Shown here piece after piece: positions 47,494 to 54,905 of a stretch of 64,000 nucleotides of DNA. Position numbers and translations under genes: made by a program. This DNA is from Bacteroidota bacterium (lineage in GTDB: Bacteria > Bacteroidota > Bacteroidia > B-17B0 > Aurantibacillaceae). Within the stretch, counting starts at the first letter, position 1. Every line of letters begins with the position of its first letter. The notes under the pieces are model-generated. The model did no database searches. It worked only from the letters and a program-made list of their open reading frames with translations, and was not told where the DNA came from. The stretch lies in assembly GCA_018267825.1 (NCBI GenBank), contig JAFDXR010000001.1, forward strand, positions 296,286 to 360,285. Reading direction: 5' to 3'.

Positions 47494-47501
47494 TACCTTT
47501 A
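47494..47501 (+). promoter_or_regulatory. -7-like box for the thiamine operon
   Basis: TACCTTTA differs from TAnnTTTG only at the last base and lies just before the riboswitch, so transcription would begin at about the first base of the aptamer. The preceding 47312-47493 region holds a CTTGCC/GGCAAG inverted repeat (47422-47446) and nothing else recognised. Confidence 0.4.
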
Positions 47502-47505
47502 TGAG

Positions 47506-47587
47506 ACTTTAGGGGTGTTCCTTTTGACATGGAACTGAGATAATACCCTTTGAACCTGATGCAGTTAGTACTGACGAAGGGAAAAGT
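47506..47587 (+). ncRNA. TPP riboswitch (THI element)
   Basis: The conserved thi-box elements occur in order: TTAGGGGTG, then CTGAGA, ATACCCTTTGAACCTGAT, GTTAGTACTGACGAAGGGAA. ACTTT and AAAGT close the P1 helix. It lies 57 nt upstream of thiS and should turn the thiamine operon off when thiamine pyrophosphate is plentiful. No intrinsic terminator is obvious between it and thiS, so control is probably at translation initiation. Confidence 0.97.
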
Positions 47588-47644
47588 AAATGGTTTCCGT
47601 CTATTGCAGCCATTCCTAAAGTTTTACAATTCATTAAAAAAGGA

Positions 47645-47854: not shown

Positions 47855-47930
47855 AAATGAGAAATGTTAAATGATAGATGTTAAATGAGAAATTTTGAAT
47901 AAAAAATATTAAATGCGATAGAGTGTCACT
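47855..47930 (+). repeat. Short AT-rich mini-repeats between thiS and thiC
   Basis: Imperfect copies of ATGTTAAATGA and GAAATGAGAAAT occur several times in this spacer. Such spacers are common between Bacteroidota genes. No function is assigned. Confidence 0.5.
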
Positions 47931-51136: not shown

Positions 51137-51770
51137 CCGCTTACAATACATATCGCAGGGGAATAATGCCAGTGAACAACTGTCTCATATTGCTTCGGCA
51201 CTGGACGCAGGTTGCGACTGGATTCAGTTCCGCTTTAAACAGGCCGATGAAAAAACCTTTCAGGAAACAGCCGCGAAAGCGCTGGAACTCTGCAAGCCAT
51301 ACAAAGCCACATACATCATCAATGATCATGTACACATCGCTGCGAAAATACAGGCAGACGGTGTTCATATCGGGCTTGACGATATGCCCGTAGCTGAAGC
51401 CCGCCGGATACTCGGAAATTCAAAAATTATCGGCGGTACTGCCAATACCCTTGATCATGTTTTAATGCGGGTACGCGAACAATGCGATTACATCGGCCTT
51501 GGCCCCTTTCGATTCACGAGCACCAAAGAAAAGCTAAGCCCCATCCTTGGTGCAGAAGGGTATCAGAAAATTATGCAGGCACTGCAGCTCCGGAAAATAA
51601 ATACACCTGTATATGCCATTGGCGGCATTACACCTGGTGATGTGGAAACCATTATGCACACCGGTGTATATGGCATTGCCGTTTCAGGCATCATTACCAA
51701 TGCACCAAACAAAAAAGAACTGGTTGAACAATTAAATGACTCATTACATGCAAACACTTCAAATAGCTGA
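51129..51770 (+). CDS. thiE: ThiE, thiamine-phosphate synthase
   Basis: A 213-residue TIM-barrel enzyme. The core follows ThiE closely: [34 protein letters not shown] (as [20 protein letters not shown]), [25 protein letters not shown] and [11 protein letters not shown]. It joins the thiazole and pyrimidine halves to thiamine phosphate. The second of two ThiE-family genes in the operon, and the better match. It overlaps thiD by 8 bp and thiG by 23 bp. Confidence 0.93.
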
Positions 51771-52518
51771 TAAAGCTCTGAACTCCCGCTTATTTCTTGG
51801 CACCGGGAAATTCGGGTCACCGCAACAAATGGAAAAGGCCGTACTGGCTTCGGGCTCTGAGCTTGTAACCGTTGCACTCAAGCGCGTGGATCTTGAAACA
51901 GAAACAGACTCGCTGCTATCGCATCTTCAGCATCCGCACATTCATTTATTACCAAATACTTCGGGCGTGCGAAATGCCAAAGAAGCTGTATTTGCCGCGC
52001 AACTGGCACGCGAAGCACTTGAAACAAACTGGCTGAAGCTTGAGATCCATCCCGATCCGAGATACCTGATGCCTGATCCTATAGAGACTCTTAAGGCCAC
52101 TGAAGAGCTGGCGAAGCTTGGTTTTGTTGTGCTGCCATACATTCATGCCGACCCGGTATTATGTAAACGTCTTGAAGATGCGGGTACCTCTGCGGTGATG
52201 CCACTGGGTTCACCAATCGGTTCAAACAAAGGATTGAAAACCATTGACTTCCTGGAGATCATTATTGAACAAAGTAAAGTACCAGTGATTGTGGACGCCG
52301 GAATTGGCACTCCTTCGGATGCTGCCTGGGCTATGGAAATAGGGGCCGATGCTGTATTGGTGAATACTGCAATAGCCGTTGCAGGAAATCCCGAACAAAT
52401 GGCACATGCCTTTAAACTGGCTGTGGAAGCCGGTCGTATGGCTTACGAAGCAAAACTGGCCAAACAGGTTAGTCATGCTGTGGCTTCAAGTCCGCTCACG
52501 TCTTTTTTGAATGATTAA
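51748..52518 (+). CDS. thiG: ThiG, thiazole synthase
   Basis: A 256-residue TIM-barrel enzyme that builds the thiazole ring from deoxyxylulose phosphate, dehydroglycine and ThiS thiocarboxylate. The Schiff-base Lys is in [37 protein letters not shown] and [20 protein letters not shown] are family hallmarks. The second ATG ([11 protein letters not shown]) is the preferred start. The operon is then interrupted: thiH, its partner, does not begin until 53793, after a repeat array and a GxxExxY gene. Confidence 0.96.
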
Positions 52519-52560
52519 TACTATATATAGTTTTAAAAAGAACAGTAAACCGAGATAGAA

Positions 52561-53323
52561 CAATTTCACGCAGATAGACGCTGATTAAGGACACGCAGAT
52601 GCACGCGAAAGATAAAAATACAGCTCGGCGAAAATCAGCGAATCCATCAGCGGAAATCAGCGAGAAATAATATAAAACCAATTTCACGCAGAAATACGCA
52701 GATTAAGGACACGCAGATGCACACGGAAGATAAAACACAGCTCTGCGAAAATCAGCGAGAAATAATACAAAACAATTAAACGAAGAAACACGCAGATAGA
52801 CGCAGATTAAGAACATGCAGATGCACGCGGAAGATAAAACACAGTTCGGCGAAAATCAGCGTATCCATCAGCGGAAATCAGCGAGAAATAATATAAAACC
52901 AATTTCACGCAGATAGACGCAGATTAAGGGCACGCAGATGCACACGGAAGATAAAACACAGCTCTGCGAAAATCAGCGAATCTATCAGCGAAAATCAGCG
53001 AGAAATAATATAAAACCAATTTCACGCAGAAATACGCAGATTAAGGACACGCAGATGCACGCGGAAGATAAAATACAGCTCGGCGAAAATCAGCGTATCC
53101 ATCAGCGGAAATCAGCGAGAAATAATATAAAACCAATTTCACGCAGAAATACGCAGATTAAGGACACGCAGATGCACGCGGAAGATAAAACACAGCTCGG
53201 CAAAATCAGCGAATCTATCAGCGAAAATCAGCGAGAAATAATATAAAACAATTGAAAGAAGAAATACGCAGATGAAACGCAAAGTCACGCAGAGAATAAA
53301 ATAATCAACGAGAAAATAATAAT
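52561..53323 (+). repeat. Tandem array of ~117-bp CGCAGAT/ATCAGCG repeats within the thi operon
   Basis: Units begin with CAATTTCACGCAG or a variant at 52561, 52679, 52773, 52900, 53017 and 53134, giving lengths 118, 94, 127, 117, 117 and 115 bp; a decayed seventh starts at 53249. The 94-bp unit lacks one 24-bp block. Each unit has several ACGCAGAT half-sites in its first half and AATCAGCG half-sites in its second half, which are near-complementary (7 of 8) and could fold as hairpins. Units are not separated by unique spacers, so this is not CRISPR. It ends 65 bp before a GxxExxY gene. The array plus gene splits thiG from thiH. Confidence 0.93.
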
Positions 53324-53387
53324 CACTAAATTCAAAAGGATGCTACTCCCTATCCATATTCAAAAAAACCAAAATACGATTTACCTT

Positions 53388-53765
53388 ATGGAGGAAAATA
53401 GCATATCCTACGACATCAGAGGGGCTGCATTTAAAGTTCACTCTAAACTAGGACCCGGCTTGCTTGAATCTGTCTATGAGACAGCAATGGCATATGAATT
53501 AAAGCAAATGGGATACCATATAAAAACCCAGGTTGCCGTGCCCATGATGTATGAGAATATAAAAATGGATATTGGATTCCGAATGGATATTCTGGTAAAT
53601 GAAAAAGTCATAATTGAAATAAAATCGGTGGAAGGATTAACAGCTGTACATCATAAGCAGCTACTGACATATCTCCGATTAACAGACAAAAGACTTGGTA
53701 TACTAATCAATTTTAATGCTTCAACATTAGCACATTCAATCGTTAGAATTGCAAACAACTTATAA
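53388..53765 (+). CDS. GxxExxY-family PD-(D/E)XK-like protein
   Basis: A 125-residue protein with the family-naming motif in LGPGLLESVYETAMAYEL (Gly-Leu-Leu-Glu-Ser-Val-Tyr). A nuclease-like core follows: GFRMDILVNEKVIIEIKSVE, i.e. Asp, then Glu-x-Lys, as in PD-(D/E)XK enzymes. HHKQLLTYLRLTDKRLGILINF is the conserved C-terminal part. The start at MEENSIS gives the usual family length; an in-frame ATG 48 nt upstream exists. Function is unknown for the family; nuclease activity is inferred from the motif. It directly follows the repeat array, reads in the operon direction and ends 27 bp before thiH, so it is probably mobile or once-mobile with the array. Confidence 0.88.
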   Translation: MEENSISYDIRGAAFKVHSKLGPGLLESVYETAMAYELKQMGYHIKTQVAVPMMYENIKMDIGFRMDILVNEKVIIEIKSVEGLTAVHHKQLLTYLRLTDKRLGILINFNASTLAHSIVRIANNL

Positions 53766-53792
53766 AATATTTATAAAAGGAAAAAAACGGGC

Positions 53793-54905
53793 ATGAAATC
53801 CTTCAAAGAGAGATTCGAAGAAGAAAACTGGGACAAAATTAAATTGTCTATATACTCCAAAACCACCAGGGATGTCGAGCAGGCTCTTGCTGCAGAAAAG
53901 CGGAGCCTTGAAGATTTTAAAGCGCTCATTTCTCCTGCCGCCATACCATACCTGGAACAAATGGCACAAATGAGCAATAAACTTACACAGAAGCGTTTCG
54001 GAAAAACCATCCAGATGTATGCTCCTATGTATCTCAGCAATGAATGCCAGAACATCTGTACTTATTGTGGTTTCAGTTTCGACAATAAAGTAAAACGCAA
54101 AACCCTCAGTGATGCGGAAATACTGCTCGAAGCAGAGGCCATTAAAAAACAGGGGTTCAATCATGTGCTCCTCGTTACCGGCGAAGCCAATCATACGGTA
54201 CATGTCAATTACTTCAAACATGCTGTGGAATTATTAAAGGATCAGTTCGCCAATATTTCCATTGAAGTACAGCCATTGGATACCGATGAATATAAAATAC
54301 TGCACCAATGTGGCGTATATTCGGTATTGGTATACCAGGAAACATATCATCAGGATGTTTACAAAACCTATCACCCGAAAGGAAAAAAATCGAATTTCAA
54401 TTACCGCCTCGAAACCCCCGATCGCATTGGTGAAGCCGGATTTCACAAAATAGGATTGGGCATACTTCTGGGATTGGAAGACTGGCGTACAGATTCCTTC
54501 TTCTGTGCTATGCATCTGGATTATTTGCAGAAAGCCTACTGGAAAAGTAAATTTTCCATTTCTTTCCCGCGCATGCGCCCTGCAGAAGGCATTATTGAAC
54601 CGAATGTAATTGTAACAGACAAAGAACTGGTGCAGCTCATTTGCGCATATCGTTTACTGAATGAAGAAGTGGAACTATCCATTTCGACGCGGGAATCTGA
54701 AAAATTCAGAGACAATATTATTCCCTTGGGTGTTACAAGTATGAGTGCCGGCTCTAAAACCAATCCTGGTGGATATGCCGTGGAGCCTCAATCGCTTGAA
54801 CAATTTGAAATCAGTGATGAACGCGATGCGCATCAGATTGCACAACTTATTAATCGCAGTGGTTATGAACCGGTATGGAAAGACTGGGATCATGCTTTAG
54901 CATAA
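53793..54905 (+). CDS. thiH: ThiH, tyrosine lyase (radical SAM)
   Basis: A 370-residue radical-SAM enzyme that cleaves tyrosine to give dehydroglycine for the thiazole ring. The cluster-binding CxxxCxxC is in LSNECQNICTYCGF. Family blocks VLLVTGEANHTVHVNYF, LVYQETYHQDVYKTYHPKGK and ISFPRMRPAEG are present. It needs ThiG as partner, but thiG lies 1.27 kb upstream beyond the repeat array. The use of ThiH rather than ThiO is common in Bacteroidota. Confidence 0.96.
   Translation: MKSFKERFEEENWDKIKLSIYSKTTRDVEQALAAEKRSLEDFKALISPAAIPYLEQMAQMSNKLTQKRFGKTIQMYAPMYLSNECQNICTYCGFSFDNKVKRKTLSDAEILLEAEAIKKQGFNHVLLVTGEANHTVHVNYFKHAVELLKDQFANISIEVQPLDTDEYKILHQCGVYSVLVYQETYHQDVYKTYHPKGKKSNFNYRLETPDRIGEAGFHKIGLGILLGLEDWRTDSFFCAMHLDYLQKAYWKSKFSISFPRMRPAEGIIEPNVIVTDKELVQLICAYRLLNEEVELSISTRESEKFRDNIIPLGVTSMSAGSKTNPGGYAVEPQSLEQFEISDERDAHQIAQLINRSGYEPVWKDWDHALA

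Follow-up and report, generated by a model that had tools for sequence, protein, structure and literature searches.

The thiamine operon of this genome raises the question of what a repeat array and a small nuclease-like gene are doing between two biosynthetic genes, and whether array and gene belong together. Within the window, by which we mean the whole 64,000-nucleotide stretch that was analysed, the operon runs in the order thiS, thiC, thiE-like, thiD, thiE-like, thiG, thiH and thiF, with 1274 bp separating the end of thiG (52518) from the start of thiH (53793). Because a TPP riboswitch at 47501-47599 heads the operon, the array and the GxxExxY gene lie inside a TPP-controlled unit. The preliminary description had called the remaining junctions downstream of thiC short, and they measure 5 bp, three overlaps and 7 bp. 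Its account of the gap itself, with six units of about 117 bp, a decayed seventh and an intact GxxExxY gene ahead of an intact thiH, was likewise borne out. All features listed below are on the plus strand.

51736..52518, plus strand: thiG, upstream neighbour (from context)
52567..52684, plus strand: repeat unit 1, a gene-less inverted-repeat (MITE-like) copy, CGCAGAT at left and ATCAGCG at right (repeat analysis)
52685..52788, plus strand: repeat unit 2, short, 104 bp (repeat analysis)
52789..52905, plus strand: repeat unit 3, 117 bp (repeat analysis)
52906..53022, plus strand: repeat unit 4, 117 bp, hairpin fold (repeat analysis, folding)
53023..53139, plus strand: repeat unit 5, 117 bp, end-to-end imperfect hairpin, DNA z -4.8/-5.3 on the two strands (repeat analysis, folding)
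53140..53249, plus strand: repeat unit 6 (repeat analysis)
about 53250..53319, plus strand: decayed seventh unit, ACGCAGATGAAACGCAAAGTCACGCAGAG ... AATCAACGAGAAA (read directly)
53340..53765, plus strand: GxxExxY gene, PD-(D/E)XK nuclease-like, 141 aa (open reading frame, profiles, fold)
53793..54905, plus strand: thiH, downstream neighbour, intact (from context)

The window also holds a 14-bp tandem repeat (AAATGAGAAATGTT, 4.4 copies) at 47855-47915, between thiS and thiC.

Structure of the array and the gene

Tandem Repeats Finder placed the array at 52567-53249, with a score of 802 for a period of 117 and of 1027 for a period of 234; the decayed seventh unit extends it to 52567-53319. The period of about 117 bp thus holds, but the units are not the plain direct repeats that they had been taken for: each is an imperfect inverted repeat, with CGCAGAT cores at its left and ATCAGCG cores at its right. 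A CRISPR-like array was rejected, as the units are alike over their whole length and there are no unique spacers.

The gene product matches TIGR04256 (E 2.9e-41, 140.5 bits, cut-off 35) and PF13366 (PDDEXK_3; E 7.5e-40, 136.4 bits, cut-off 22), in both cases over the full length. Its homologues begin at the ATG at 53388, which gives a protein of 125 residues. Repeats are found only on the upstream side of the window gene, and the right arm is absent.

GxxExxY genes typically lie between matching inverted ends

At 79 loci, which are kin of the query GxxExxY and hence a biased sample, the hexamer CGCWGA occurs at 12.3 per kb in the 200 bp upstream of the gene and at 0.43 per kb more than 2 kb away; for TCWGCG, the values are 15.3 per kb in the 200 bp downstream and 0.41 per kb more than 2 kb away. 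Both signals, CGCWGA upstream and TCWGCG downstream, are present in 69 of the 79. A motif-free test, in which the 200 bp upstream were aligned to the reverse complement of the 200 bp downstream and a score of at least 30 counted as a pass, gave pass rates of 71% for the kin loci (n = 76), 70% for further GxxExxY genes of the kin genomes (n = 30), 59% for the source's own class (n = 34), 68% for Verrucomicrobiota (n = 28) and 88% for Cyanobacteriota (n = 26). The rate was 1.2% among 343 other open reading frames of the same loci, and 17% when partners were swapped among members of one group.

The ends are mostly built of a heptamer of the form C-R-C-N-R-A-N, mostly repeated at steps of 8-12 bp. 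Core heptamers differ among hosts and include CGCAGAT, CACAGAG, CGCAAAG, CGCCAAG, CACTAAA, CACGAAT and TACGAAA, and also TACGAAT. The preliminary description had associated GxxExxY genes with CGCAGAT-rich repeats. The link to repeats stands, far beyond chance both in the 79 loci and in the motif-free test, and its absence, which would have spoken against the idea, is not what the pass rates of 59-88% against 1.2% in controls indicate; a single shared motif does not stand, as the heptamer is private to each copy. The further proposal that gene and array form one unit holds across phyla in altered form, with ends that normally lie on both sides and are inverted. Taken together, the co-occurrence of the gene and its matching ends as a unit across phyla is well supported by these comparisons. 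For the window copy, we infer the unit from its kin at the thiG-thiH junction, and the one-sided upstream array reads as an unusual, partly decayed form of the cassette.

GxxExxY genes above the profile cut-off are present, often in many copies, in 42 of 60 genomes comprising the window's own and its relatives, in 45 of 96 sampled Verrucomicrobiota and in 22 of 98 sampled Cyanobacteriota, the genomes compared being mostly drafts or MAGs. Near-absence from plasmid records (8 of 72,556) and absence from the phage collection (0 of 50,697) give no indication of spread by plasmids or phages.

Paralogues within one genome have private ends

Four genomes with 7-14 analysed paralogues each, at a median pairwise identity of about 32%, allowed ends to be compared within the same host. 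The two opposite ends of a gene match each other (score of at least 30) in 68% of 37 genes, against 3.3% of 336 pairs swapped within a genome. In the source genome, the window gene adjoins CGCAGAT units; a decayed GxxExxY copy on contig C33 is preceded by CGCAGAT and soon followed by ATCAGCG; and a third gene, on C1, has five TACGAAT upstream at exact 10-bp steps and five ATTCGTA downstream, none of them reversed. The match of own ends and the three genes of the source genome therefore point to gene and ends as one unit with changing specificity. Since the paralogues within a genome appear to be old, as their identity of about 32% suggests, movement, if any, would be rare.

Two orthologous cassettes between scoA and scoB of Hymenobacter (L145 and L290) have arms that changed in step, A to G in one arm against T to C in the facing one, which resembles concerted evolution of the ends. 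In an Ignavibacteriales genome, a whole GxxExxY cassette is tandemly duplicated (L127; G062, C8:359130-359931).

The GxxExxY protein is predicted to have a Cas4/RecB-like fold

In an alignment of 117 members, Y30, D67, K79 and Y95 are invariant and G22, G24, E27, E77 and Q91 nearly so, with E77 and Q91 conserved in at least 90%. The predicted catalytic residues are D67, E77 and K79 (numbered from 53388). A structure model (pLDDT 94.5, pTM 0.89) has as its best match among solved structures SSO0001, a Cas4 protein (PDB 4ic1; Z 9.7), followed by archaeal Holliday junction resolvases (Z about 6-7), lambda-type exonucleases and restriction enzymes, a range of Z values that supports a shared fold and nothing beyond. 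The protein is thus modelled as having a Cas4/RecB-like PD-(D/E)XK fold, in which D, E-x-K and Q-x-x-x-Y are conserved. A sequence search found no significant relative in the PDB.

In Cas4 proper, four cysteines hold an Fe-S cluster. The 125-residue window protein has no cysteines and so would lack this cluster. Neither cas1/cas2 nor a CRISPR array lies beside the window gene, whose neighbours are thiamine genes. Membership of a defence system was rejected: PADLOC returned weak matches to Cas4 and PDC-M36A (E 0.001-0.03).

Certain residues co-vary with the heptamer core. Lysine at position 90 goes with G, and alanine with A, at core position 2 (p 0.0125 against a tree-based null, about 100 columns tested), and further co-varying residues lie in helix 1 and at 111-117. 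About a dozen column/base pairs sit at the lowest attainable value, p 0.0025, against an expectation of about one under the tree-based null. Because the tree is weak, we regard this co-variation as suggestive, and part of it reflects clade structure.

Gene-less copies in the source genome

The window array matches 37 places in the source genome, which correspond to about 20 separate loci, half of the genome's repeat loci being at contig ends. Most of these loci have a left and a right arm without a gene between them, so that dispersed gene-less copies share the CGCAGAT/ATCAGCG ends of a gene-bearing unit, as in RAYT/REPIN systems. The 117-bp units of the window are elements of this gene-less, inverted-repeat kind as well. 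Such copies are not abundant everywhere, since the gene-less element of one relative (G006) has a single weak further copy in its own genome. As single-stranded DNA, one unit folds over its whole length (z -4.8 and -5.3 on the two strands), and fold energy is strong on both strands for RNA and DNA alike; folding therefore cannot decide the level at which the units act.

Many gene-less loci alternate with CGTCATTGCGAGC-type palindromes. Arrays in which CGCAGAT units alternate with CCGTCATTGCGAGCGAAGCAATCTC palindromes occur on contigs C2, C9, C11, C23, C31 and C33 of the source genome (G000; L007, L008, L012, L013, L021, L025), and many of them end contigs. The CCGTCATTGCGAGCGAAGCAATCTC palindromes resemble CGTC-tagged REPs, a class said to be without a transposase (PMC3733652).

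Cassettes occupy the same gene junctions repeatedly

A search of 60 genomes, the window's own and its relatives, found a ThiH match in 27. As had been predicted, the thiG-thiH junction is empty or nearly so (0-54 bp) in several relatives (G023, G027, G029, G035, G057 and others). A spacer common to all relatives and devoid of GxxExxY was not found; junctions are empty or carry GxxExxY, the latter in G015, G034 and G036. Other elements also sit at this junction: a gene-less inverted repeat of the CGCAGA type in G006 and G020, a similar palindrome of the ACCACAAAG type in G004, a RAYT-like Y1 transposase gene identified from its translation and adjoined by a GCAGACGTCGGAGGTCTGC hairpin in G016 (L056), and an S23-type four-helix gene in G022 (translation and TIGR02436 match). 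In the separate sample of 79 named loci, with duplicates removed, 12 genomes besides the window carry GxxExxY between thiG and thiH. These genes do not form one clade: the tree, built from few columns of a short protein, with most deep forks open and the exact number of arrivals uncertain, requires the label to change five times or more on branches with good support, and 0% of 200 bootstrap trees have a single label change. A single ancestral insertion was rejected because at least five changes are needed, though columns are few. Elements have thus arrived at this junction on more than one occasion, some with GxxExxY and some of other types.

Other junctions behave alike. In Hymenobacter, the amylase-SDR/amylase junction carries GxxExxY in 11 of 30 loci, with several end types, and the other loci are without it. 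Between scoA and scoB, which encode CoA-transferase subunits, GxxExxY is present in three species, an 18-bp gap in one, and in one species an S23-like gene bounded by TTAGGG-type ends of its own, as read from the sequence. The non-coding flanks have diverged too far between Hymenobacter species for an exact alignment of empty and filled sites. The same junctions can be seen to be occupied more than once and empty in relatives. Gene-less palindromes of other short repeats (ATGTGCTAATGTGC and TTGCCAGTTGTCAG types) occur at the same Hymenobacter junctions (L302, L274).

The left arm starts at a median of 6 bp past the upstream stop codon and the right arm ends at a median of 17 bp before the next ATG; judged by position, cassettes occupy the intergenic space almost completely. 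No target-site duplication of at least 4 bp was clearly above shuffles in 81 elements.

A proposed mechanism and its rivals

These comparisons suggest that the GxxExxY family forms the core of a probably mobile DNA cassette. The cassette would consist of one small PD-(D/E)XK gene between two terminal inverted repeats, each with about 3-5 heptamer cores roughly one helical turn apart. The nuclease would recognise its own heptamers, probably as folded single-stranded hairpins or a cruciform, and cut at its own ends, so that the cassette could be excised, copied or inserted. It may also act in trans to move gene-less copies, in the way proposed for RAYTs with REPs and REPINs, and gene junctions inside operons would be places that tolerate insertion. 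Both the cutting of its own repeats by the nuclease and the mobility of the cassette are what we infer from sequence patterns. With moderate confidence, we read the window insert as a decayed or expanded member of this widespread family, whose nuclease acts on its own ends and which lodges at gene junctions. In the window, the tandem array of gene-less copies would have arisen by multiplication of the left end, and the right end would have been lost; as a unit, this copy can therefore probably not move any more, though its protein is intact.

The strongest rival holds that gene and ends travel together but are moved by other machinery, either replication slippage or template switching at hairpins or a RAYT/HUH enzyme, and that the nuclease benefits the cassette by other means, for example in protecting the ends or removing competitors. 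It ranks as the strongest because S23p genes, which do not encode nucleases, share the architecture, and because the intervening sequence with S23p in Coxiella combines tandem heptamers with an inverted repeat. In the relatives, S23p/four-helix genes (TIGR02436), unrelated to nucleases, have private heptamer ends in 15 of 30 cases against 1.1% of swapped pairs (L358-L387, score of at least 30). S23-type genes also occupy the same junctions as GxxExxY, which means that movement need not depend on the cargo protein, and a RAYT-like gene is at hand between thiG and thiH in G016. The private ends of each paralogue and their co-variation with residues point instead to recognition by the encoded GxxExxY protein, and we consider mobilisation by other machinery unlikely, if worth taking seriously. 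Less probable still is a module acting at the level of regulation or RNA, in which the repeats fold in the transcript or serve as operators and the operon mRNA is processed or regulated by GxxExxY, much as RNase III removes intervening sequences from 23S rRNA. The arms are foldable as RNA, RNase III excises the Coxiella sequence with its heptamers and S23p gene (PMC4990558), and of 49 cassettes between co-directional genes 40 point in the operon direction against 9 reversed; the co-directional share of ordinary genes is alike, at 179 to 33, and the thiG-thiH junction works empty in many relatives. Selection for an RNA stem was rejected by a wobble test: mismatches between the arms have no excess of G-U on the sense strand (164 G-U against 269 A-C, a skew explained by the A-rich left arm), which makes action at the RNA level less likely.

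The repeated occupation of identical junctions and the conserved active site of the nuclease would also fit a homing-type selfish gene, whose nuclease cuts the empty junction so that repair copies the cassette in. A homing enzyme depends on a specific target, but the junctions in use are very unlike one another and no shared motif was seen by eye at empty sites; nor does homing require inverted terminal repeats or gene-less copies. We therefore hold homing to be improbable. That chance brought an array and an unrelated gene to one insertion-tolerant site might seem plausible from the window, where the repeats are one-sided and the junction collects other elements as well. For the GxxExxY family, chance association was rejected, given a 30- to 40-fold enrichment that is two-sided, inverted and found across phyla, against 1.2% of control open reading frames, and as an explanation of the window locus it is very improbable.

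The cassette reading can be widened to a proposal that we put forward tentatively, as possible at somewhat below even chance: GxxExxY proteins may serve as the enzymes of mobile cassettes that form a new class spanning phyla. In this class, a Cas4-like nuclease would read helically phased heptamers at its own ends by a changeable protein-DNA code (for example Lys90 with G, Ala90 with A at core position 2), movement would leave no target-site duplication, gene-less copies would be spawned, and S23p genes would be another, unrelated cargo with the same architecture. The large GxxExxY family is without an assigned function, and the matched private ends give it a testable role. These ends would also explain the heptamer repeats (CACAGAG, CACAAAG, CGCAGAT and similar) that are scattered in environmental genomes and break assemblies, and they offer a natural series of nuclease/target pairs for working out how DNA is recognised. 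As the thiG-thiH case shows, cassettes can live between genes of biosynthetic operons.

Comparison with known systems

The open-access journal literature searched yielded no published account linking GxxExxY to repeats, no relevant paper on six end sequences and no description of the cassette architecture of the relatives' S23p genes. It does include TAACTGA heptamers in intergenic arrays of Beggiatoaceae, for which the authors suggest a repeat-binding protein of unknown identity as a mobile element (PMC4679880). Unlike these direct repeats, GxxExxY ends are inverted pairs, and no gene associated with the TAACTGA repeats was found in that account.

The intervening sequence in the 23S rRNA of Coxiella has an inverted repeat and tandem heptamers (GACAGAT) before the start codon of its S23p gene, and such sequences are suspected remnants of transposition (PMC4990558). 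Both systems have a small open reading frame bounded by an inverted repeat and heptamers. The GxxExxY cassettes examined differ in lying between protein genes and not in 23S rRNA, in encoding a nuclease and in having no RNA-stem signature. With Cas4/RecB-family nucleases such as SSO0001 (4ic1), GxxExxY proteins share the predicted fold and the arrangement of G..E..Y, D, E-x-K and Q-x-x-x-Y; unlike Cas4, they have a 125-residue core without cysteines and, here, are not beside cas genes.

RAYT/REP-REPIN systems consist of a small chromosomal gene, a REP-associated tyrosine transposase, with palindromic or inverted repeats (PMC3116915, PMC3733652, PMC3686654). As in those systems, gene-less copies of the cassette are dispersed between genes, and the repeats are very diverse by host. 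The enzyme, in contrast, is a predicted Cas4/RecB-like PD-(D/E)XK protein and not an HUH/Y1 tyrosine transposase, the ends are helically phased heptamers and not GTAG-tagged hairpins, and a single genome carries many divergent paralogues whose ends are private to each. REPs are not known to make a target-site duplication, and none was seen for GxxExxY cassettes. Terminal inverted repeats, a general trait of insertion sequences and MITEs, typically flank the genes of the family, though the window copy lacks the right arm. As in these elements, a gene lies between terminal inverted repeats and gene-less derivatives share its ends; unlike insertion sequences, the cassettes have no DDE transposase and no target-site duplication, and their ends are built of 7-bp cores at steps of 8-12 bp.
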